Shown in pieces: positions 13,137-53,297 of a stretch of 64,000 bases of DNA. Within the stretch, counting starts at the first letter, position 1, and each line of letters opens with the position of its first letter. A model generated the notes under the pieces. It was given only the letters and a program-made list of their open reading frames with translations, was not told the DNA's origin and did not search any database. The translations under genes were made by a program, and so were the position numbers. This DNA is from Bacteriovoracaceae bacterium (GTDB lineage Bacteria > Bdellovibrionota > Bacteriovoracia > Bacteriovoracales > Bacteriovoracaceae), in NCBI GenBank assembly GCA_013141065.1, contig JABFRR010000002.1:89927-153926 (forward strand), read 5' to 3'.

Positions 13137-16100
13137 ATGAAGTATTTATTTGTCACATTTTTATTTTTTTCATTAAGTTTTCTCAGTAATGCTCAAGATA
13201 ACTGTACTGGTGTTCGTATTAATATGAATTTCTATTACAGTGAGTGTGCACGAATACAAGCTGAATCAATTGAGCAGGGTGCAGAGGGGCTGGTGTTAAC
13301 CCCTACAAAAAAACTCGTATACGTAGATGATAATGGACAATCATACTCGAATATAGAATGCGTTAGTAAATGGGAGCACTTAATATTTGGTTATATTTCT
13401 GAGCCATTTTTAGATACATGTGGTGTGAATCCTCCTGGGCCCAAAATTCAAAACGCAAACTCATGCGGAGTCCCTGGCTCAATAATCGAAGTTTCTAATC
13501 AAGTTGTCGGAGAAGTCATTCCCGTGGTCGGAGCCCCATTTGAATTAATTTATTATTCTAATAAAGTTATTGGCAGAACAGAAGACTATATTTCAAGAAT
13601 TCCATTAACAGCTCAGACTTATTCATCTGCAGTTATACATTTAGGATTACTAATAAAAAATGAAATTGATGCCACAGTCCTTAGTACGAGTTACACCCCT
13701 TCTTCAAATATTATTTATAATTATCAGTGGGATGGGTTCGACGCAAGTTTGAATGAAACGTGGGGAAAAATAAGACGAAATGTTACAATTTCTGAAACTG
13801 CCATGGATTTATCATTTCCACCAGAACCAAGGGACATCTATCTTGGTAATTTGAAAGCTAAAAAATTAGGAATAGGAGCATGGCTTCCGAGTATCTGGCA
13901 TTTTTATGACCAGGTTTCCGGCACACTTTTTAAAGGAGACGGGTCCTATAGAGAAATCAAAGGAAAAGTAATTGGTGCCTACACAGAAGTAGCAGATGAA
14001 TCTGGCCTGGAAGTTTATTATTTTGATAGCACTGGTAAAATCTCTCATACAAAAACAGGACTTACTGGGGCGACGATTTTTACTTTTTTATACGATGGTG
14101 CCGGCAGAATAACGAGCATTACACAAGCATTTGGGCAAGTGACAACTTTTTCTCGAGATGGCTCAGGACAACTTCAGTCAATTGTTGCTCCCAACGGAAA
14201 AGTAACTAATGTGAGTTTTAATACGAATGGATATTTATCAGAAGTTTCTAATCCCAACTCAGAAGACTATCTAATGACCTATTATGGAACGACGGGGGGG
14301 CTACTTCATACATTTACTAAACCTTCAGGTGATGTGACAACTCTTACCTATGATAGTTATGGAAATTTAACAAGTGACACTCACACCAATGGTTTTTCTT
14401 TGACGCTTAGTAAAGTTGACGGTGTCGTTTCTTCAGTGAGTTCTGAAGGTGTCACCAATTTTAGTAAATATACACCATGGGATTTTACAGAAAAGAGCAC
14501 TTCGGCAACAGGCCTAGTTAATTATGTCAGTACAACACCTACGTCAACTGCCATTAGTTCACCTTTTGTAAGTCGCAATTATACTTATGAAGCCGATTTA
14601 CGTTTTGGAGATCAAGTCAAAAATATTTCAAATTCATCTATCTCTAACTATGGAGTCCGAAATACAAGTATCACACGAAGTCTGAATTTAAATACACCAA
14701 ATGACCCTTTTTCAATTGATACATATTCAATTCTAGAAACGGTTGGCCCTTCTGAAACGACTTCAGTTTATTCAGGCAGCAATAATTCTTGGGTGACAAC
14801 TAGTAAGCTTGGAAGAACACTGACGAAAACTTTAGATACTTATGAAAGACCAATTTCCGTGCAGAAAGGAAATTTGACTGCCACAAATTTTACTTACACT
14901 AATGAGTTGTTAACAAAAATTTCTCAAACGTCTGCGAGAGAAACAAGCTTTACATATTTTACAAATAAACTTTTAAAAGATGTGACTAATGCTCTCAATG
15001 AAGTCACTAGCTACACTTATGATAATGCCGAAAGACTTTTAACGAAAACACTACCTGACTTAAGAGTGATTACTTATAGCTATGATTCAAACGGAAATAT
15101 AACTAGTATCACTCCACCGAGTAGACCGGTGCACACTTTAACATACGGGTTGAATGAAAAACTTGTCGATTACACTCCTCCAAGTTTATCCGGTGTGAGC
15201 ATCGTTAAAACAGAATATACTTATGACTTGGATAAGAGGTTAATAAAGATCACTAGACCCGATGGAAAGGAAATTGATTTTACTTATAGTACAGCGAATG
15301 GACTTCTTGATACGACGTCAGGTTTGTTTGGAACTATTACTCATGGTTATAATTTGGGAAGTCTCACAAGTATTGTGGACCAATTTGGATCAACTCTTAA
15401 TATGAATTATACCGGCAATACAGTGACTTCAAGTGATCTCAGTGTCACGGCGGGAGCAGTATATAGTTATTCACGAACTCCAAATGCCACTGCTGGCGAA
15501 AAAACTGCAAGTGAAACGATTAATGGTTTGGGAGCAAGTTCTGTTAATAGAACGGTTGCCTATACTTATAACGATGACGAATTATTAACTGGCGCTGGAA
15601 CAATGAGTCTCGTTTATAATGTACCCAACGGACAATTGACGGCAACGACCTTAACGAATATTAAGGATTACACTTATTATAATTCTTTCGGCGAAGTCAT
15701 TCAGTATGTAGTGAAAAAAGGCACACCCGTTATTTATCAATATGACTTAATCAGAGACAATCTCGGACGAGTCACTAAAAAAACAGAACTCTTAAATGCC
15801 GTGACAACAATTTGGGACTACCTCTACGATAGTGCTGGAAGACTGACTCAGGTAAGTAAAAACTCTGTCGTCGTTGCCACTTATAGTTATGATAATAATA
15901 GTAATCGCACGGGTGGAATAATTCGAGGTGTGAGTACTACTGCCATCTATGATAATCAAGATCGACTGACTACATATAACGGTATTGCTCGAAGCTATAA
16001 TGCCAATGGTGAACTGTTAACACTCGGAACGGCCGTCCTTACTTATGATGTCTTTGGAAATTTAAATCAATTTGTGAATGGTTCAACAAATGTGACTTAC

Positions 16101-42424: not shown

Positions 42425-44188
42425 ATGTCTTTTAATTATAAAAAAAATTCACATGATTCAGGTGATAGCTTCTGGACATCTTATTCAGATTTGTTCTTAG
42501 GCTTAAGTTCAATATTCTTACTCCTCTATGTTGTCTCTAGCATGAGGCAGGGGGCAGATACAATTAAGCAACAAGTAGTCAATGAGCAACTTGAAACGCA
42601 AGTCAGTGATTTAAAAAATCAGCTCAAAGCATATGAAGATATAAAGAATCAATACATGAAAGATTCTGCCAGTGATTCTGAAAAAGACGAATATAACGAA
42701 CTCGTTGATAAGCTTTCTTTGTTACAAGAAGAAACACAGTCTGAGAATGATAAGCTTAAAAGACAATTACTCGATAACCAAAAAAAAGAAGTCTCACTTA
42801 ATAAGTACCAACAAATGGTACGTAATATGCTTAATGCCAATAAACTTGCCAAAACAAAAATCAATACTAGGGAAGTTGTCATTGAAGAAAAATCTCAAGT
42901 TATTGCTGAAAAAGAAGATCAAGTTAATGACTTAGAAAAAGAAGTTCAGTTAAATGAAAAAAAGATTGCTGAAGGTGAGCAACAAATTCGTGAAGCTAAA
43001 GGTCAACTTGTAGACAAAGTAAAACAATTAAAAGGATTGTTTAAGGCCAACAAACTTTCTAAAGCTGCAATGGAAAAAAAGATCGCCCAAGCTAACGAAG
43101 AAAATCAAAAAAGACTTAAGGCCTTGGCCGCCGAAAAACAACAGTACCAAGCACAACTTTCTGGTGTTTCTCAAAAACTTCAAGAAGTGGCTTCAGACCT
43201 AGATCAAACCAAAGAACAACTTGATCAAAAAGCAGCTGAAGCAAGTCAGCTCGCAGGCAAGTTAACCCAAACACAAGCAGACGCTGCAGCAAGAATAGCA
43301 GGATTAAAATCAAAATTTGGAGCAGAGCAGGCGCGATTAGCGGCTGATGCAGAATCAAAAATTTCAGGAATGAAAGCGGCTTTCGGCGCCCAACAAGATA
43401 AAATGGCCGCAGATGCAGAAGCCAAAATTGCAGGCATGAAGTCAGCCTTTGGTGATCAACAGGCACGTGAACGAGCTGCTTTTCAAGGAGAGCTTGGCAA
43501 ATTGAAACTAGGTGCTGCTGAAAGAGAAAGAAGAGAAGGAGAGTTTAGAGCTGCTGCTGCTGCCAAAGAAAGAGACATGAATAACCAAATGTCTGGCCTA
43601 CAAGGCCAACTTGCTAAGGCCAAAGCTGAAATTGAAGCTCGCCAAGCAGTTGCCAAAGATATTCGCCAAAGTTTTGCTAGGGCCGGAATTAAAGCAGAAG
43701 TTAATGATGAAACTGGTGAAGTTGTCTTAGATTTTGGACAGTCATATTTTGATAGTGGTTCTGCTCAGTTAAAAAATGAAATGAAAGCCGTCATTGAAAG
43801 AGCAGTTCCAGTCTATGCAAAGTCACTTTTAGGAAATGCGAAAGTTTCTGATAAGGTTTCTGCTGTAGAAATTATCGGATTTGCTTCGCCTACCTATAAA
43901 GGTAGATTTGTTGATCCAAAGAGTAGTTCTAAAGAAGATCAAGAAGCGCTTAAATACAATATGGATTTGAGTTATTCTAGAGCTAAATCAATTTTTAATT
44001 ATATCGTTGATAATCAAAATGATCAGTCACCAACTCAAAAAAGCTTAATGTCATTGATGAAAGTCTCAGGACGAAGCTTTTTAGAAGTTGCAAAAGTTAA
44101 AGATGTTTCACCAAAAGATTTTTGTAAGGTGAATGATTGTAAAAAAGCACAGAGAGTTGTTATTAGATTTAGTATGGATAAGAAATAA
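42425..44188 (+). CDS. MotB-like stator protein with long coiled coil and OmpA-like domain
   Basis: 587 residues. The N-terminus is MotB-like: FWTSYSDLFLGLSSIFLLLY, with an Asp at 22 in the place of the proton-carrying Asp of MotB. Residues about 50-425 are predicted coiled coil, which MotB does not have, and include three 22-residue repeats (see 43277). The C-terminal part is an OmpA-like peptidoglycan-binding domain (VVLDFGQSYFDSGSAQLKN, then NMDLSYSRAKSIFNYI). By family logic it is an ion-driven wall-anchored stator, working with the MotA-like protein 40 nt downstream. No flagellar genes are near. A TATAAT box at 42385 may serve the operon besides the sigma-54 site. Confidence 0.8.
   Translation: MSFNYKKNSHDSGDSFWTSYSDLFLGLSSIFLLLYVVSSMRQGADTIKQQVVNEQLETQVSDLKNQLKAYEDIKNQYMKDSASDSEKDEYNELVDKLSLLQEETQSENDKLKRQLLDNQKKEVSLNKYQQMVRNMLNANKLAKTKINTREVVIEEKSQVIAEKEDQVNDLEKEVQLNEKKIAEGEQQIREAKGQLVDKVKQLKGLFKANKLSKAAMEKKIAQANEENQKRLKALAAEKQQYQAQLSGVSQKLQEVASDLDQTKEQLDQKAAEASQLAGKLTQTQADAAARIAGLKSKFGAEQARLAADAESKISGMKAAFGAQQDKMAADAEAKIAGMKSAFGDQQARERAAFQGELGKLKLGAAERERREGEFRAAAAAKERDMNNQMSGLQGQLAKAKAEIEARQAVAKDIRQSFARAGIKAEVNDETGEVVLDFGQSYFDSGSAQLKNEMKAVIERAVPVYAKSLLGNAKVSDKVSAVEIIGFASPTYKGRFVDPKSSSKEDQEALKYNMDLSYSRAKSIFNYIVDNQNDQSPTQKSLMSLMKVSGRSFLEVAKVKDVSPKDFCKVNDCKKAQRVVIRFSMDKK
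43277..43474 (+). repeat. three tandem 66-bp repeats in the MotB-like gene
   Basis: Units at 43277, 43343 and 43409 each code for 22 residues of the form ADAEAKIAGMKSAFGDQQ. The period of 22 fits two 11-residue (hendecad) turns and so a right-handed rather than a heptad coiled coil. Tandem units may vary in number among strains. Confidence 0.85.
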
Positions 44189-44227
44189 TAATAAGAGAAT
44201 ATCGAGATCGTAATAAGGAGTAAATTT

Positions 44228-45136
44228 ATGTCTGACCAAATTAACACTGCCCATTGGATAACATGGTTTATTACAAGTCTTCCTTGGATTATCGGAGGAG
44301 TCTTTTTCGTGGCAGCGTTTACCAGATACATCATTTTTTACACCGTTCAAAGGCATGAATGGTTTTCTGTAGAATTTGAAAAAAGAGTAAACCGCTTTGT
44401 TGAGTCTCAGAACCCTGGAGATGTAAACGATGTTTCGTTCTATGTTCTTTCTAAAAAATGGTTAGAAAAGACTTATTATGAAATTTTTGAATTGCGTGAC
44501 AGAATGCAAAGAAGAAGATCTGATAAAGTCATGAGACTGGCAGATCGAGTTTTTCTCATAAAGCAAGGATGTGCTTGGCTAGTTAAAGATATTTTGAAGC
44601 AATTAAAGTTTTTGAAGTGGACTCAAGATACACCTAAAATGCTTAACATTACAAAAACTACATTTAATCACAACCCATGCTTTAATCGTATCTTTGGAAT
44701 CTTTCCGATAAACGTTGTGAACGATCTCATTTCAATTCTTCCAGGTTTATTCGTTGTTGGTGGGGTTCTTGGAACATTCCTTGGTATTAGAGGAGGTTTA
44801 ACAGCTCTTGGTAGCATGAACATGGAAAATCTTGATGCCACAAAAAGAGTTATGGATAGCTTCTTAGCTGAAATTGCTCACGCCATGGGGGCATCAATTG
44901 TGGGTATTACTTTTTCTCTAGCAATGCACATAGTGAACACATTGTTTAACCCTGAAAGAGTTTTTGGCTCAATGATTGATAGATTTGAAAGTGCACTAGA
45001 TTTATTATGGTACAGAAGTGACAACAATCGCTTTCCAAGTAACTCAGTGGCATTTGATGAACATAAAGATCCTTCAGAGGCATTGGCAGAAGAAGCTATT
45101 AAATTAGAAACTTCTAAAACGCCTGTCGAGGCATAA
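44228..45136 (+). CDS. MotA/TolQ/ExbB-family proton channel protein
   Basis: 302 residues. There is one membrane span near residues 15-38 (WIIGGVFFVAAFTRYIIFY) and a pair of spans at about 175-245: LPGLFVVGGVLGTFLGIRGG and IAHAMGASIVGITFSLAMHI, the core of the MotA/TolQ/ExbB family. A cytoplasmic helical region of about 130 residues separates them. Members form pentamers around two MotB/TolR-type subunits and are driven by the ion gradient. The MotB-like gene is directly upstream (40 nt) and an FHA-coiled-coil gene 26 nt downstream, so one operon is likely. Confidence 0.85.
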   Translation: MSDQINTAHWITWFITSLPWIIGGVFFVAAFTRYIIFYTVQRHEWFSVEFEKRVNRFVESQNPGDVNDVSFYVLSKKWLEKTYYEIFELRDRMQRRRSDKVMRLADRVFLIKQGCAWLVKDILKQLKFLKWTQDTPKMLNITKTTFNHNPCFNRIFGIFPINVVNDLISILPGLFVVGGVLGTFLGIRGGLTALGSMNMENLDATKRVMDSFLAEIAHAMGASIVGITFSLAMHIVNTLFNPERVFGSMIDRFESALDLLWYRSDNNRFPSNSVAFDEHKDPSEALAEEAIKLETSKTPVEA

Positions 45137-45162
45137 TGATAACTGGGATGTAATGCACGGGT

Positions 45163-46557
45163 ATGAATGATTCAAGTGCTAATTTACTATTAAGAATTTC
45201 AGAAAACGAAAATGAACAGACTCTCTCCCTGAATGGGCGAGAGTTTGTCTTTGGCAGAAGCCAAGACTCTCAAGTTGTATTAAATGACCAGGCGTTCAGT
45301 CGATCTCACTTTAAGTTTACGGTAGTTGGTGAGAAGCTATTTTTATCAGATCTCAAATCTTCAAACGGAACCTATCTTAACGACAAAATAATAAAATCTA
45401 AAGAAACGCCTGTATTTGTTGGTGATGTTATTTATACTGCCAATTCTGATATAAAAATTTCTATACAGTCGATTGAAATCGAGACTCCTTATGATCCTGA
45501 CAATGAACCTACTCAAAGCAGTATAAATCTTGGGAAATTTAATCTCACTCGAACACAATATGATGAAGACGATGAGGCTTTTGAAGAAGAGATCGCACCA
45601 GAATCGGAAGAAATGTCAGATGCTGACAATGAAGAATTCAGTGAAGAATCCAGTGAAGATGAAAGTGAAAATGAGGGAGACTTTAACACGGCCATCTTAA
45701 CTGACAGAATATTTGCAGCCGCCAATCAGCAAGTCAGTGAAATATTGATAAATGCCAATAAAAAAGCGGAAGAGATAATTAAATCAGCACAGCTTGATCA
45801 TGACATAAAAATCAGTGAAAATGAAAAAATTTCAAAGTCAGATTTGCTTTCTAGAAAAAAGATAATTGAACAAGAAATTGAACAATACAGAGAGGCCCTT
45901 GAAGCAGCGACGCTCAAAGCTGTTGAACTCGACAAAACAAAAAAAATCGAAGAGCTAGAACTTGAATTAAGTCAGAGGCAAATAGAAAATGAAAGACAAT
46001 TAGAAGCTGAAGCTAGAAGAAAATCCTCTGAGTTTGATGTTGAATATAATGAAATGCGAGAGCGTTTTTCTCATGAATCTAGAGAGCTTACAGAACAAAA
46101 TCACGAAAAAAGTTTAGAGCTACAAAAACAAATTTCGGTAATAGAGAGTCATCTTCGATTAAAAAATGAAGAATATTTAAAGTTAGATGCAAAATTAGCT
46201 GAAAAAATTCAATCAATCGAAAAAGAAATTGACCTGCAGTTAAAAACTAAGAAAAAAGAACTTCAATTATTGCAATCCAACTTTGATAAAGAACAAGAAA
46301 AACAGCAAAGAGAAATCGACGCAACAATAATTGAAAAGAAAAATGAACTTTCGAGAGTCTCGAAAGAAATGAGTGAGACAATTGCTCATAAACAAAATGA
46401 AATTAATAAAATGATTGCGATGTATGAAGATCAAAAAAAGCTTCAAATACAGATGCTCGAATCAGATTTGGAAAAAAAGAAAATATTTTATGAAGATCAA
46501 ACAAATCAATTAGAAAAAAAGGTTGCGGCTACTCAAGTTGAACTCTACTTTGATTGA
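45163..46557 (+). CDS. FHA domain-coiled-coil protein, 5' part of a split gene
   Basis: A canonical FHA domain is at residues 1-105: FVFGRSQDSQVVL, FSRSHFKF and SSNGTYLN hold the phosphothreonine-binding residues. An acidic linker (EESSEDESENEG) and a long coiled coil to residue 464 follow. The frame then ends (TQVELYFD), but the coiled coil goes on without a break in the +1 frame from 46523. If joined, the product has about 925 residues with FHA, coiled coil, one membrane span and a C-terminal domain, the same plan as the protein at 47938-50826. An A7 run at about 46510-46517 is a likely place for the change. It follows the MotA-like gene by 26 nt. Confidence 0.8.
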   Translation: MNDSSANLLLRISENENEQTLSLNGREFVFGRSQDSQVVLNDQAFSRSHFKFTVVGEKLFLSDLKSSNGTYLNDKIIKSKETPVFVGDVIYTANSDIKISIQSIEIETPYDPDNEPTQSSINLGKFNLTRTQYDEDDEAFEEEIAPESEEMSDADNEEFSEESSEDESENEGDFNTAILTDRIFAAANQQVSEILINANKKAEEIIKSAQLDHDIKISENEKISKSDLLSRKKIIEQEIEQYREALEAATLKAVELDKTKKIEELELELSQRQIENERQLEAEARRKSSEFDVEYNEMRERFSHESRELTEQNHEKSLELQKQISVIESHLRLKNEEYLKLDAKLAEKIQSIEKEIDLQLKTKKKELQLLQSNFDKEQEKQQREIDATIIEKKNELSRVSKEMSETIAHKQNEINKMIAMYEDQKKLQIQMLESDLEKKKIFYEDQTNQLEKKVAATQVELYFD

Positions 46558-47932
46558 AAATTATGACATTAAGAAAAAAGAAGAAATGCAGACCATTTCT
46601 GAACTTAAAGTTAAAAATGAACAGTTGAAAAATAGTGTTTTACGTTATCAAGATGATCTAAAGAAAAAAAATGAAGAAAATCAGCATTTAATTGATGAAA
46701 TTAAAAGTGAAATTGATGGATTGACCAAAAAGAAGAATGAATCGACTAAAGAGGCCATTCAGCTTAAAAAAGAAGCCGATGATCTTTTATTAAAAAATAA
46801 AGAATTAACTGATATTAATATTTCTGTAGAAAATAAAACAAAAGAATCTCGCAACATTAGGGCAGAATTAGAAAAAGAAGCTAAGAGTTTTATTACTCAA
46901 AAAGAAGCTTTAATTCCAGAGATAGAAAATTTAAAGGCACAAGTTAATGAAGCTCGTAAAAAATTAGATGATATCTCAAGGCAGGCAGTTCATATCCAAA
47001 AAAATCATGAAAAAGAAATTGCAGGTCTGGATATTGTTTTCGCTCAAAAGAAAGAAAGTCTCGATGCAGAAATTAGAAAGTTGCGAGATATTGAAGAAAA
47101 GAAAATACAAAATTTAGTACTTCAAGAAATTAACCAAATTAACAAACTGAAAGAAGAATCACTAAAGATGGTTCTAGACTTAGAAGATTCAATTACAAAA
47201 GAATTGGTTAATTCTACGATGACAGTATTTGCCAATACGATTGGTGCTTCGAAATTTAAAGAAATAGCTCCTCATTATGAACAAAGCATCAGGACCTCTC
47301 TTCAAGGTGGAGTTCTCAAGTTATTAAAGAATGAATTAAATCCTTCAAAATCACCAAATGCTAAAAAATTGTCGTCTAATCCTAGAGTGATGAAACCGGT
47401 GATTATAAGTTCACTTATCAGTGCATTTATATTTGGGGTCATTCCTCATATTTATAGACAAATTGAAGATCAAAATGATCCTGTACGTCTCGAGATGGCA
47501 GCTAGAGCGCGTGCAGCCGCCATTGTTCCGAAGCGAGTTTTTACACCGATGAAAGTTGCTGAATTAAAGCCGACATTTGTTGATGCTGTCATTTACACTG
47601 AGGGCTTTACCGACGTTTATGCTAAAGAAGAATTTCGCTCTGAACTTATGAAAAAGGGAAGTGAGTATCTTTATAAACAATGGCAAATAGACGAAGAAAA
47701 ATCGATTGAGGCCTACGCAATGATTTTTTCAATGATTGATCTATTAAAAGATAAAACATTGAAAGTTGATCCTGATAATGAACAAAAAGACATCCAGAAA
47801 ATGGTTCAAATTGAAAAAGAGACATTAAAAAAGTTAGAAAAAATATTGGGTAATGAAGTCAGACTAGAAGCTGCCCTTAAATTTCAAACTCGCTACTATA
47901 AAGAATTTATTGGTGATACTTCGGTAGAATAA
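46523..47932 (+). CDS. coiled-coil membrane protein, 3' part of the split FHA gene
   Basis: 469 residues in the track, from an internal TTG. The first 230 residues are coiled coil continuing that of the preceding frame. One membrane span follows (PVIISSLISAFIFGVIPHIY at about 292-311), then about 150 residues that are mostly helical (EGFTDVYAKEEFRSELMKKG) and by topology would be periplasmic if the FHA part is cytoplasmic. I recognise no family in that last domain. No ribosome binding site supports an independent start. It ends 5 bp from the stop of the convergent FHA gene. Confidence 0.7.
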   Translation: MRLLKLNSTLIENYDIKKKEEMQTISELKVKNEQLKNSVLRYQDDLKKKNEENQHLIDEIKSEIDGLTKKKNESTKEAIQLKKEADDLLLKNKELTDINISVENKTKESRNIRAELEKEAKSFITQKEALIPEIENLKAQVNEARKKLDDISRQAVHIQKNHEKEIAGLDIVFAQKKESLDAEIRKLRDIEEKKIQNLVLQEINQINKLKEESLKMVLDLEDSITKELVNSTMTVFANTIGASKFKEIAPHYEQSIRTSLQGGVLKLLKNELNPSKSPNAKKLSSNPRVMKPVIISSLISAFIFGVIPHIYRQIEDQNDPVRLEMAARARAAAIVPKRVFTPMKVAELKPTFVDAVIYTEGFTDVYAKEEFRSELMKKGSEYLYKQWQIDEEKSIEAYAMIFSMIDLLKDKTLKVDPDNEQKDIQKMVQIEKETLKKLEKILGNEVRLEAALKFQTRYYKEFIGDTSVE

Positions 47933-47937
47933 TTATG

Positions 47938-50826
47938 TTATGGTGCTATGAGTGCTTTAATTTCTTTAAATGCACTTTCATAAAAATTCGGATACTCGAC
48001 TATTGAATAAACAATGCCAGCAAGCAGACAAAAAATGAGTGTATTTTTCTTAATCGCTTGAAAGTTAATTTTTCGTCTCGGAAAGAGTGTACGCATGTCA
48101 ACATTCTTTCTTTCGATTTCACCTTGAATGGCCTCTAAAACGACATTTTTAAATTTAAAATGTAACTTTTTAATCAAAGTTTCTGTTAATGGTAAATTTT
48201 TAGATTTTGTAATTTCTAAAGTGAGATGATCTTGAGCAATCAGTGCAAATGCCTCTGCCATTTCATGATTTTTCTTGTCAGCGTACCGCTCAATAGTTTC
48301 TTTCATCTCTTGGAATTTTTCTTCTTCTACTCTTTTTAATTCAGACATTTCGAGTTGATACCTTTCTTTACTTCGTTGGGCATCTAATTCAATGTCTTTA
48401 GCTCTTTTTTCAGCACGTAAAATAGTTTCACGAATCTTTTTTTCATTGGCGAGGTAATTGTCATTCATTAAACTATCTGATTTTCGAATTGATTCTTCCA
48501 AACTTCGTTTTAGTTTTTGATTTTCCTCGCTCTCGAGTTTATTTTTTTCTTTTTCTAGGATCACTTCATTTTTTAGTTTTTGAACTTCGGCCATTCCCCT
48601 TTGATGGAAACTGTGTGATTCCTTCAGCATGGCCTCTTTTTGTTTTGCAATATCAATTACTAATTGCTCTTTTTTCTTTTGTATATCGAGTTTTGTTTGG
48701 TTAGTGGCATTGAATATAGTTTCTTTCGCTTGATTTTGAATTGCGAGGGCCTCTTTTTTTGCATCATTTATTATTGTTTCGGCCTGCTTATTAGCAGCAA
48801 CAACAATTTCATGCCCTTTCTTCTGAGCATTTTCTTCTATCCAGTTGAGTTCACTTTTAATAGTTTCTTTTTGTTTGTTAAGTTTAGCTAATTCTTCAAG
48901 ATGAATAAGTTTTTCTTTTTCGTTTTCTTCATGGGCAGTTTTAAGCACTTCCTCTCGTTTTAAAAGAGAATCTTCTTCTGCTTTAATTTTCTTCTGATCT
49001 ATGTCTAAAAGAGCCGCTTTAATCTTTTTAATTTCTATTTGATTCTTTTGGTTTGCTTCCAATAAGATTTCTTTACTTTGAGCTTGCGCCTCCAAAATAA
49101 TGGTCTCAGCCTCTTTTTGAGTCTTTTCCCTCATTTCGTTTATTAACTTTTTCTCTTTTTCTATCGTTTCAAATTCTTGCTTAAAGTTTTCACTTTTACT
49201 CTCAATTTCTTTTGATACTTGAATGAGTGTTAATTGAATTCTCTCTAATTCAGATTTTTTTTCATTTTGGAGTTGGTCAATTTTATCAGCTTCAAATTGC
49301 AATTTTTTGCAATTTATATCAAGCTGGTTAATTTCTCTTTCAATTTTATTTTTCTCATTTCTAAGTTCTTGAATTTCTGGTTGTAGAGCATCTTTAGTCG
49401 CGAGAGCTTTTTCGGCCTCTGCAAACATTTTTGCTGTTTTTCCTTGAGCTTCATAAAACTCAGTTTCAATTTTCGCCTTAACTTTTCTTTCTTCTATCGC
49501 TAGTTCTTCTAGTTTTAGTTCACCACTTCGCTTAAGTGTTTGATGATAGCTTTTAACTTCATCGAGATTTTGATTTTCATTTCTTATTCGTTCTTTAATC
49601 GCCTCGACATCATCATTAAATTGTTTAATTTTTTGATTGTGCCTAGATTCTGCATTTTTAAGACTTGCTAGCCGCTCTTCAAAGGTTCTTAAAAGCTTAT
49701 CTTGCCTTGATTTTATCTCATGCGTTTCTTTTTCAGTTTTATTAAGTTCTTCATTGGCACCAAAAAGCAATTCTTCTAGTGCTTTTTTTCGAGTTTCTTC
49801 TTCATAAGAAATCCGATCTAATATTTCTTTTTCTTTTAATTGAACACTCTCTAGAATTTCTTTTTCAATTGATTTGGCATTTTCTATCATCTCTAATTCA
49901 GAGAGTTTGGCAGTGTCGAGCATCTTTTTTTCTACGGCCCTAGCATTTCCAATAATTTCTCTTTCAAATGACTTTGCATTTTCAATTATTTCGTGTTCAT
50001 GGGCCATGGCCCTTTCTATTATTTCTTTTTCTTTCGCTCTGGCTTTCTTTAAAATTAAATTTTCTTCTTCTAATGCATGCTTTTTAATTTGCTGAGCTTT
50101 TTTAAGAGAATTTTCTTTAAGTTTGAGTGATTCAGTACTAATAAATTGCTTGACCTGATTGTCTAGACTAGGGGCATCTTCAGGCATAACAGCTTTAAGT
50201 TTTGGTGCAGCTTTCTTTTCGGTTGCAGTTGAAGCCGGAGTCGGAGTCGGAGGTGGATTTTTGTAAGTCACTATTGAGCTGGATCCATTGGCAACTTTTA
50301 GCTCGACGACTTCAGGCATATTTGATTTTGCCATTGGTTTAACGAATGCCTTTACATTATCTTTTACAATGACTTTGGTACTTGCCTGGACATTGGTCTT
50401 TGCCAGTTCTTTGGTCACAACTTTGTTTTTATCTTTTATCAATTTTGTGGCATCAAAACTAAGTGTTCTATCTGATTGTTTGACATCGGCCAGTGGTTTT
50501 TTTTCAATCTGAGTTTCCGCGATGATACTTACTGAAGGTCCATTTTTTCCACCTAAGAGTAAGATGTCGTTGGCATGAAAAATTTCGGGTTTGCCTTTTA
50601 TGAGTTTGACATCATTTAAGATTGTGCCATTGGTAGATCCCATCTCTTCAACAACAATGCCATTATTATTTTTTGAAATTTTAAGATGATTTCTACTGAT
50701 GAGTTCGTGATTAAAAATAATGTTACAGTCTCGGCCTCGACCGATGACACATTGATCCCCATCAACTTTATGCGAAGTTAATTTTCCTTTTTCGTTAATG
50801 GTTATTTTAAATCTATTTTTACTCAT
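47938..50826 (-). CDS. FHA domain-long coiled-coil-membrane protein
   Basis: 962 residues. The FHA domain is at residues 1-100 (VIGRGRDCNIIF, ISRNHLKIS, GSTNGTILN, all binding positions kept). A Lys/Ala/Pro-rich linker follows to about 220 and includes a PPPTPTPAS stretch. Then about 600 residues of coiled coil have the style of F-type ATPase subunit b or DivIVA proteins (EREIIGNARAVEKKMLDTAK and many similar lines). A single membrane span lies near the C-terminus (TLIFCLLAGIVYSIVEYPNF). Together this is a scaffold about 90 nm long tied to the inner membrane with a phosphopeptide-reading head. It is convergent with, and has the same plan as, the split FHA gene. Confidence 0.85.
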   Translation of the reverse strand: MSKNRFKITINEKGKLTSHKVDGDQCVIGRGRDCNIIFNHELISRNHLKISKNNNGIVVEEMGSTNGTILNDVKLIKGKPEIFHANDILLLGGKNGPSVSIIAETQIEKKPLADVKQSDRTLSFDATKLIKDKNKVVTKELAKTNVQASTKVIVKDNVKAFVKPMAKSNMPEVVELKVANGSSSIVTYKNPPPTPTPASTATEKKAAPKLKAVMPEDAPSLDNQVKQFISTESLKLKENSLKKAQQIKKHALEEENLILKKARAKEKEIIERAMAHEHEIIENAKSFEREIIGNARAVEKKMLDTAKLSELEMIENAKSIEKEILESVQLKEKEILDRISYEEETRKKALEELLFGANEELNKTEKETHEIKSRQDKLLRTFEERLASLKNAESRHNQKIKQFNDDVEAIKERIRNENQNLDEVKSYHQTLKRSGELKLEELAIEERKVKAKIETEFYEAQGKTAKMFAEAEKALATKDALQPEIQELRNEKNKIEREINQLDINCKKLQFEADKIDQLQNEKKSELERIQLTLIQVSKEIESKSENFKQEFETIEKEKKLINEMREKTQKEAETIILEAQAQSKEILLEANQKNQIEIKKIKAALLDIDQKKIKAEEDSLLKREEVLKTAHEENEKEKLIHLEELAKLNKQKETIKSELNWIEENAQKKGHEIVVAANKQAETIINDAKKEALAIQNQAKETIFNATNQTKLDIQKKKEQLVIDIAKQKEAMLKESHSFHQRGMAEVQKLKNEVILEKEKNKLESEENQKLKRSLEESIRKSDSLMNDNYLANEKKIRETILRAEKRAKDIELDAQRSKERYQLEMSELKRVEEEKFQEMKETIERYADKKNHEMAEAFALIAQDHLTLEITKSKNLPLTETLIKKLHFKFKNVVLEAIQGEIERKNVDMRTLFPRRKINFQAIKKNTLIFCLLAGIVYSIVEYPNFYESAFKEIKALIAP

Positions 50827-51899: not shown

Positions 51900-53297
51900 G
51901 TGAGTATATCATTAAATGATCAAATGAATAAAGAGTGGTTTATATTTAAAGGCACCCATCACACTGGCCCGTACAGTGTTAGTGAACTGCGTACATTTTT
52001 TGTCAATGGTGAGATCACCATGCAGTCTTTACTTTGGAAAGAGGGAACAGAAAAATGGGAAGCCCTTAGTCGCATTGACGTATTGAGACCTGTACATCAA
52101 TTAAGTGAAAGTTCAACTCCAGATATTCCTCCATTGCCCACACCGACTAAAAAAGTCTTACCTAAATTAACTCCTGCGCCTCTACCTGCGCCGCCTATAG
52201 ATGCTGACGAACCACCTCCCATTCCACTCGATGCACTCTTAAATCCTGCTGGAGATAAAGAGTTATTTAAAGCAGCACCACCGGCTTATAAGAAATATAT
52301 TTCAAAAATTCTTTTTGGATTTATGCTCTTGGTTTTTGCTAGTGTCATAGCTTGGTTCACACTCAATGAACAATCATCTCAAGTTCAAATAAAAATACCT
52401 GGGGTCATGCCCATTTATGTAGAAAAGTTACAGGAGCTTGCCTCGCAAAGACTTCCAGGGATTTCTCTTGGAATGGCGCTTTCAATCGATAAAAGTAAAC
52501 TTTATGCGGCCATTAATCAATCCGGTGAAATTTTATCAACCATTAAATTAATTTCTGTTCCAAAACGAATTTTAGGATCAAGTGATATTGAGTTGCAAGT
52601 CAGAGGAGTCATTAAGGATCATCTTGGATCTTTTGAAAGAATGTCGATGATTAAAGGTGAGAGGCTTATTCCGGGAGAATACGAAATTCAATTTTCTGGT
52701 AAAAAAATTCATTATCTCAATTCACAATTTAAATTCTTGCGAGCGATGAATGTATTTAATAATCTCAATACAAATTATACATATAAAACAGTTGCTTTAA
52801 TTTATCCTGGAACACCAAGAGACTTTGAACTCAAACTCAGCGAGTTTAAAAAAGCCGTATTAAATGAAGCACTCAAGCCTTTTGGTGATAAACTTGAGCG
52901 TCACCAAACCTTCCTATCACTCCTCAATAAAATAATGGAGATGTACTTACTGACTTTAGAGAAAATTTCGAAGCCACTTGAAATTAATGCTTTTGAAAAA
53001 ATGTTAATTAAAGAAGTCTCTCCCATTATTCAATCTTTAATTATTGAAGCGAGTGAACGATCAAATGAAGTTGTAACTGACGATTTGGGATCTTACAAAA
53101 ACCAAGTTTATATCGGCAAGCAAATCGGTGAACTAGCGAGTGATATGATAACGCTCACTCAAAAGTCCCCGAAGTTGGCATTTGCCGACAAGACGGCACT
53201 CAAAGCAAAATTTGAGACTCGTTATAAATTTGTCAAATCTCAATTGGATACAGTGATTCAAGAAATTCAGACAAAAATAGAAGTCTTATCTAAGTAA
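51900..53297 (+). CDS. GYF-domain membrane protein
   Basis: 465 residues from GTG; an ATG at 51924 (MNKEWFIF) is also possible. Residues 10-60 form a GYF_2 domain (EWFIFKGTHHTGPYSVSELR, LLWKEGTEKWEAL), a bacterial proline-peptide-binding type. A proline-rich stretch (PPLPTPTKK, PAPPIDADEPPPIP) and one membrane span near residue 140 (ILFGFMLLVFASVIAWF) follow. The C-terminal 300 residues would be periplasmic and have no family I know. GYF_2 could bind proline-rich segments of other proteins, including the one in the FHA protein nearby, which is speculation. Confidence 0.7.
   Translation: MSISLNDQMNKEWFIFKGTHHTGPYSVSELRTFFVNGEITMQSLLWKEGTEKWEALSRIDVLRPVHQLSESSTPDIPPLPTPTKKVLPKLTPAPLPAPPIDADEPPPIPLDALLNPAGDKELFKAAPPAYKKYISKILFGFMLLVFASVIAWFTLNEQSSQVQIKIPGVMPIYVEKLQELASQRLPGISLGMALSIDKSKLYAAINQSGEILSTIKLISVPKRILGSSDIELQVRGVIKDHLGSFERMSMIKGERLIPGEYEIQFSGKKIHYLNSQFKFLRAMNVFNNLNTNYTYKTVALIYPGTPRDFELKLSEFKKAVLNEALKPFGDKLERHQTFLSLLNKIMEMYLLTLEKISKPLEINAFEKMLIKEVSPIIQSLIIEASERSNEVVTDDLGSYKNQVYIGKQIGELASDMITLTQKSPKLAFADKTALKAKFETRYKFVKSQLDTVIQEIQTKIEVLSK

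Follow-up and report, generated by a model that had tools for sequence, protein, structure and literature searches.

The DNA analysed here, referred to as the window, is a 64,000-nucleotide stretch (C2:89927-153926). The assembly comprises 3.58 Mb in 21 contigs, with a completeness of 92%. An ORF check across the 64-kb window bore out a cassette at positions 42425-50826 (Table 1). The initial annotation had described a MotB-like gene and a MotA-like gene followed by two genes for FHA coiled-coil proteins. All four kinds of gene are present, with 39 bp between B and A and 26 bp between A and FHA protein 1. However, the gene for FHA protein 2 is on the minus strand and lies outside the operon, converging on that of FHA protein 1 with 5 bp between their ends.

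Table 1. Features of the cassette, in window positions
Feature	Position	Strand	Evidence
B subunit (MotB/ZorB-like), 587 aa	42425..44188	+	PADLOC, AlphaFold model, structural ranking, invariant residues
A subunit (MotA/TolQ/ZorA-like), 302 aa	44228..45136	+	PADLOC, NCBIfam, profile comparison, invariant residues
FHA protein 1, first half: FHA domain (residues 29-90) and start of coiled coil, stops at frame change	45163..46557	+	PF00498 E 6.1e-14; frame analysis
FHA protein 1, second half: coiled coil, membrane span (ORF residues 289-307), C-terminal helical domain, other frame	46523..47932	+	41-47% identity to C-terminal part of single-ORF congeners; hydropathy; tblastn frames
Frame-change interval in FHA protein 1, with a run of seven A	46514..46557	+	Stops in two frames at 46511 and 46555; sequence
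FHA protein 2, 962 aa: FHA head, long coiled coil, C-terminal membrane anchor	47938..50826	-	PF00498 E 1.6e-15; heptad periodicity; adjoins cassette in L013, L014, L015

The cassette is surrounded by genes of central metabolism and others, namely, those for a succinate dehydrogenase-type flavoprotein, RimK, a zinc protease, a radical SAM protein, a member of the arginase family, a GYF-domain protein, a metallo-beta-lactamase, and succinyl-CoA ligase. In agreement with the initial annotation, no flagellar, Tol, Ton, or ZorC/ZorD-type genes were found among the window neighbors tested, and the same was true of Pal and division genes. The GYF-domain protein, which has one membrane span, is encoded near the cassette at 51900-53297; in Bdellovibrio bacteriovorus, according to the available text of one study, Bd0474, an FHA protein, is bound by Bd0075, which combines GYF and TPR (PMC12034629). 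A further FHA protein of 628 aa with several hydrophobic stretches is encoded at 241-2127 on the minus strand.

Each of the two FHA proteins had been described as an FHA head, a long coiled coil, and one membrane span. The FHA residues, long helices, and span were indeed seen, but FHA protein 1 is encoded here by two overlapping ORFs. Its first half aligned to the congener proteins in one frame, with an end point that varied from 46464 to 46545 among congeners, and its second half aligned in the next frame, starting between 46472 and 46565. In three congeneric loci (L013, L014, and L015), the protein is a single ORF of 820, 840, and 931 aa, respectively, and in L016 it is one ORF of 778 aa cut by the contig end. 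The DNA alignment across the break was very gappy. Either a recent mutation or an error in the sequence or assembly accounts for the break in the window genome. A programmed frameshift was considered and rejected: the in-frame heptamer A AAA AAG would give a -1 shift, which does not fit because the second ORF is in the +1 frame. Heptad periodicity was reached by 1 of 300 shuffles for the second half and by none of 300 for FHA protein 2; for the first half, it was not clear (74 of 300).

FHA protein 2 is an extra specific to the window's genus. By profile labeling, it was found in 2 of 80 loci, both from congeners, and it adjoins the cassette in all four congeneric loci that could be judged, including the window and L014. 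In L015/L038, it lies upstream and is divergent. In L014, its FHA domain (13880-14260, minus strand) is in frame upstream of the first ATG/GTG/TTG, so its start codon is probably unusual or the sequence contains an error.

The A and B subunits and their solved relatives

As the initial annotation had proposed, the B subunit combines a membrane Asp with a predicted wall anchor of the OmpA type. It has one N-terminal membrane helix with Asp22, a periplasmic helical stalk of approximately 375 residues, and an OmpA/MotB-like C-terminal domain. In PADLOC, B matched ZorB1 (E 3.1e-27) and ZorB2 (E 1.2e-15), and both models matched all 59 B proteins of the relatives. Against Pfam, the window B and A stayed under the curated cut-offs for OmpA, MotB_plug, and MotA_ExbB (PF13677/PF00691/PF01618); NCBIfam agreed with the Zor assignments of both subunits by PADLOC, with scores under the NCBIfam cut-offs. 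Coiled-coil matches aside, B matched family models of OmpA, MotB, and ZorB, and not the ExbD/TolR type. When the B profile was compared with solved structures, the two matches at an E value of ≤1e-4 were ZorB of types II and I, with coiled coils also matched at looser E values.

When the AlphaFold model of B was aligned by VIA, ZorB structures came out on top (8vvi, Z 17.2, 207 residues aligned, rmsd 4.3; 8qyd, Z 15.4, 161 residues, rmsd 2.4; 8vvn, Z 15.1, 206 residues, rmsd 6.8), followed by the periplasmic domains of MotS (Z 13.7) and MotB (Z 12.6). In plain Foldseek, ZorB was not first, and the only two matches under E 0.001 were MotB. Judged from the model, the periplasmic domain of B is MotB/ZorB-like, and the preference for ZorB comes from VIA and the sequence.

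Asp22, Ser488, Asn512, Arg519, Cys567, and Cys572 are invariant in all 59 B proteins, and Asp22 aligns with the ZorB Asp in the profile alignment. At the position of the peptidoglycan-binding His of ZorB, 56 of the 59 proteins have Phe and 3 have Tyr, while the Ser and Arg positions are kept; thus, wall binding by B is suggested by the fold, Ser488, and Arg519. Directly outside the membrane, Tyr90, Leu93, Tyr128, and Gln129 form a patch that is likewise invariant in 59 of 59, and for this reason the stalk is probably more than a mere spacer.

In the AlphaFold model (single chain, mean pLDDT 77.8, pTM 0.47, which is middling confidence), the stalk consists of helices at 18-80, 84-207, 213-297, 302-359, and 364-419. 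A straight alpha helix rises 0.15 nm per residue, so that 375 residues in one straight helix would span about 56 nm; the periplasm is 20-30 nm deep. Residues 130-293 of the model aligned in VIA with antiparallel coils, including FtsX/EnvC among many unrelated ones. These structures are antiparallel hairpins, so the stalk probably folds back on itself. Heptad periodicity of B was reached by 5 of 300 shuffles.

The proposed MotA/TolQ-type channel gene was also recovered, as the MotA/TolQ/ZorA-like A subunit. It matched ZorA1 in PADLOC (E 2.7e-9) and a ZorA subfamily in NCBIfam (E 1e-9, under its cut-off), and a ZorA1 model matched 76 of 78 A proteins of the relatives. A profile (A5) was built from these 78 proteins, whose lengths were 290-440 aa by selection. 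At an E value of ≤0.1 it matched six solved chains, all carrying a ZorA or MotA/TolQ/ExbB name in the ZorAB entries 8vvn and 8vvi, with no match to MotA among the solved structures. By hydropathy, the span layout of A is TolQ-like. The last hydrophobic peak is at 222-240, which leaves a short C-terminal tail, and most relatives are about 300-370 aa without a long tail. Thr82, Thr183, and Ser223 are invariant in all 78 A proteins, and Thr183 and Ser223 align with the Thr/Ser of ZorA.

Among solved structures, both motor subunits come closest to ZorA and ZorB of the Zorya phage defense system. The initial annotation had drawn on the MotAB/TolQR/ExbBD families; an ion-path stator pair is present, but it is closest to ZorAB in sequence and predicted fold. 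A plain MotAB or TolQR pair was rejected on the ranking of ZorA/ZorB in the profile comparison and VIA, the Foldseek result for B notwithstanding.

The FHA partner and other signal-reading genes

FHA protein 1 keeps the residues GR...SRxH...SSNGT. From 54 third proteins that passed a length and C-domain filter, 50 were scanned, and Pfam found an FHA domain in 48 of them. Gly27 (48/50), Arg28 (42/50), Ser42 (44/50), His45 (44/50), Asn64 (42/50), and Gly65 (45/50), which are presumably phosphothreonine binding, were largely kept. The FHA fold was also backed by structure comparison, and no TonB domain was found in the 50 proteins scanned.

In the AlphaFold model of the 783-aa FHA protein 1 of B. 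bacteriovorus kdesi (single chain, mean pLDDT 76.2, pTM 0.32, again middling confidence), an FHA fold (1-103) is followed by helices from 146 to about 583 and a membrane span at about 604-626. The last part, about 650 to 782, is a helical domain modeled with confidence. Because there is a single membrane span, the FHA head would be cytoplasmic and the C-terminal domain periplasmic. The 50 structural matches listed, which the FHA domain filled, held no fold match to the C-terminal domain. Because FHA matches took up the list, this result does not speak for a new fold.

Control of the cassette by a Ser/Thr kinase is plausible; the window genome has nine FHA stretches and one PF00069 kinase, which does not lie near the cassette. 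In the same genome, four FHA stretches lie within 3.6 kb at C6:159138-162756, possibly the counterpart of the Bd0470-0475 predation operon. In more distant relatives (G020, G021, and G022), stator pairs at L018:7039-11256, L019:9281-13161, and L020:8733-12670 adjoin a small protein of 160-164 aa with a cNMP-binding domain and have no FHA protein. The gene for this protein is on the same strand in L018 and L020 and convergent in L019. A cNMP reader beside the distant stator pairs fits a signal-gated stator.

Conservation and distribution of the cassette

Among the best 80 of 182 relatives in a search with the A profile A1, the same-strand order B-A-FHA was found in 71. In the other 9, the contig ended after A (3) or before A (1), the next ORF had no FHA label (3), the upstream ORF had no B label (1), or no A was called (1). 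In one locus (L097), an ORF of 3164 aa without an FHA label follows the A gene at the expected place of the FHA protein. The 80 relatives were picked by A similarity and include near-duplicate loci, such as L070/L071, L076/L077, and L084/L109. Nearly all are Bdellovibrionota, including a strain of B. bacteriovorus, and the closest named ones among them are Bacteriovoracaceae/Bacteriovorax metagenome genomes. The order recurs far more than expected by chance. A four-gene order had been described, and this holds only inside the window's genus; elsewhere, the conserved unit is the three genes B-A-FHA.

Two observations that could have spoken against a joint system were looked for. Scattering of the genes was not seen in the related genomes, where they stand together in the proportion given above, and the flagellar-type MotA and MotB matches of the window genome adjoin each other on contigs C9 and C11. 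By the conserved order, the idea of a stator pair and an FHA coiled-coil partner as one system is strongly supported; the ion-path residues are also invariant. At least two flanking genes were shared only inside 12 groups of close relatives, which indicates that the three genes stay together while their neighborhoods change.

Of the 368 genomes of the phylum, 186 had a match to the B profile, as did 20 of the 24 genomes of the genus g65; a search of 72,556 plasmids gave no match. In the window's genus, the A gene is present in only 5 of 14 members, so the cassette is dispensable there. FliG was found in 333 of the 368 genomes. Two near-complete genomes (G261, 97%; G263, 99%) kept the B match and had no FliG found, which makes them useful for separating the B-A-FHA stator from flagella.

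Sequence identities and a tree suggest that the window's genus acquired the cassette by lateral transfer from the Bdellovibrio lineage. The window A is 58-70% identical to copies of another family (f6), but the best copies from the rest of its own family (f1) reach 41-52%. For the window flavoprotein, used as a control, identities were 72-78% within f1 and 69-71% in f6; for G090 and G048, two of the eight genomes of f1, no full-length match was obtained. In a tree built with a quick method, the window and its congeners nest inside a Bdellovibrio-type clade, away from other Bacteriovoracaceae, with support of 98, 99, and 96 for the starred sets of 4, 5, and 11 rows. Old paralogy is a possible alternative because one genome (G106) has two copies.

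In general, B-A-FHA is a real, conserved ZorAB-type stator operon with a dedicated FHA-coil partner. No description of it was found in the open-licence literature searched, and nothing relevant to the operon was found in the literature on Bd112-Bd117. Bd0510-0513 was considered as the counterpart in strain HD100 and proved wrong, as Bd0512 is RecA.

Possible function and comparison with known systems

The operon most likely works as a signal-gated or signal-coupled ion-driven motor. As a more specific explanation, to which we give slightly better than an even chance, it would be a ZorAB-type ion-driven stator with the cytoplasmic tail supplied by a separate FHA protein, which gates or couples the motor in envelope or predation biology. 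A and B would form an inner-membrane stator of the ZorAB kind, most likely with five A around two B. The OmpA-like domain of B, carried on a folded helical stalk of unusual length, would tether the subunit to the cell wall. The gene order suggests that the third protein acts with A5B2, contributing a long cytoplasmic coil tipped with FHA, one membrane span, and a small helical domain in the periplasm. A ligand phosphorylated on threonine could, on binding to the FHA head, switch or anchor the coil and in this way gate ion flow through A5B2 or couple its rotation to a cytoplasmic or envelope load. Gliding, predation, or constriction, as proposed initially, may be that load, and the role is probably in normal Bdellovibrionota cell biology (surface movement, prey entry, or envelope remodeling) rather than defense. 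The lack of a detected FHA domain in 2 of the 50 third proteins and the frameshift in FHA protein 1 of the window were counted against this explanation.

The relationship to ZorA and ZorB, the patchy occurrence in the window's genus, and the lateral acquisition would also suit a Zorya-like anti-phage system with another effector, in which a disturbance of the envelope, sensed by the stator, would be passed on by the FHA-coil protein. This is quite unlikely, as the unit has no nuclease or helicase and A lacks the tail needed by Zorya. In addition, no ZorC-, ZorD-, or ZorE-like family was present beside the window cassette or among the 25 of 32 families listed for 137 flanking proteins, where matches to other defense models were scattered, with at most two members each. 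Also against it are the high frequency in g65, the lack of plasmid matches, and the conservation of flanks among close relatives, the last being as for ordinary chromosomal genes. A motor like Tol-Pal for envelope maintenance or division, pulling or remodeling the wall at constriction, is improbable to a similar degree. The predicted wall-anchored B, long periplasmic stalk, and ion-driven core are consistent with it, as is the resemblance of the stalk model to FtsX/EnvC. However, these coil matches are generic, the window neighbors tested included no Tol, Pal, or division genes, and 9 of 14 congeners lack the cassette. Four more MotA/TolQ/ExbB-family matches, which may serve Tol/Ton, lie elsewhere in the genome besides two beside MotB matches.

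An additional flagellar stator is very improbable. Although B has a MotB-type anchor, FliG is widespread in the phylum, and extra MotAB pairs are common in these bacteria according to the available part of one report (PMC11323537), the subunits are closest to ZorAB rather than MotAB, no flagellar genes were found among the window neighbors tested, and G261 and G263 retain the operon without a FliG match. A doubtful but possible form of the preferred explanation, that of a ZorAB-type stator with an FHA tail, is that gliding or prey entry is driven by this operon, either alone or as one motor among others. The lineage distribution fits this; the motor and force transmission of Bdellovibrio gliding are called unidentified in the accessible sections of a 2026 review (PMC13104615), and the predation regulator DgcB is under FHA control, with the kinase described as unidentified in the text available (PMC6733907). 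On the other hand, the current candidates are AglRQS-like genes (Bd0828-0838), and attachment fails in mutants of AglS, as stated in the portions available of two papers (PMC3169522, PMC6561027). A bolder version is rather unlikely: a non-defense ZorAB branch with a split-off phosphothreonine-reading tail would be a lineage-wide Bdellovibrionota envelope motor that a Ser/Thr kinase turns on at prey contact and that powers part of gliding or prey entry. If so, the Zorya stator would have been recruited from an older signal-gated motor, which would also have cousins gated by cyclic nucleotides within this phylum.

The Zorya motor is known from phage defense, and a chromosomal ZorAB-type motor outside defense shows other possible uses. 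The fixed signal-reading partner and the conserved operon also offer a direct genetic target in a model predator.

Compared with ZorAB of Zorya types I and II, the cassette is alike in both subunit sequences, the B Asp, the Thr/Ser ion path of A, the OmpA-like B domain, and the predicted B fold. In Zorya, mutation of the ZorB Asp abolishes defense, and both the Asp and wall binding are needed, according to the available text (PMC11890865). Where ZorAB stands in relation to MotAB and TolQR is described as open in the accessible part of another paper (PMC12505986). The cassette differs in its order (B then A), the length of the B stalk, the replacement of the ZorB His, and a nearly tail-less A where ZorA has a long cytoplasmic tail. 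It also has an FHA-coil-membrane third protein and no ZorC/ZorD seen at the locus; Zorya proper was rejected on the missing A tail and on the lack of ZorC/ZorD beside the window cassette and among the families listed for the flanking proteins. MotAB/PomAB/MotPS share the membrane Asp and the OmpA-like wall anchor of B, with MotS and MotB the next structural matches. Unlike them, the cassette has an A that is TolQ-like by hydropathy, is not with flagellar genes, and is kept in two near-complete genomes without a FliG match. The Bd0470-0475 FHA proteins and DgcB of B. bacteriovorus are FHA-containing predation proteins from the same phylum, but their architecture is TPR or GGDEF, and no stator pair is described in the available text of the two reports (PMC12034629, PMC6733907). 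TolQR/ExbBD and AglRQS resemble the cassette in the span layout of A, whereas its B is of the OmpA type rather than the ExbD/TolR type and its FHA partner has a very long cytoplasmic coil. The AglRQS gliding machinery also has an FHA-containing partner, GltG, as described in the part of that paper available (PMC3169522).
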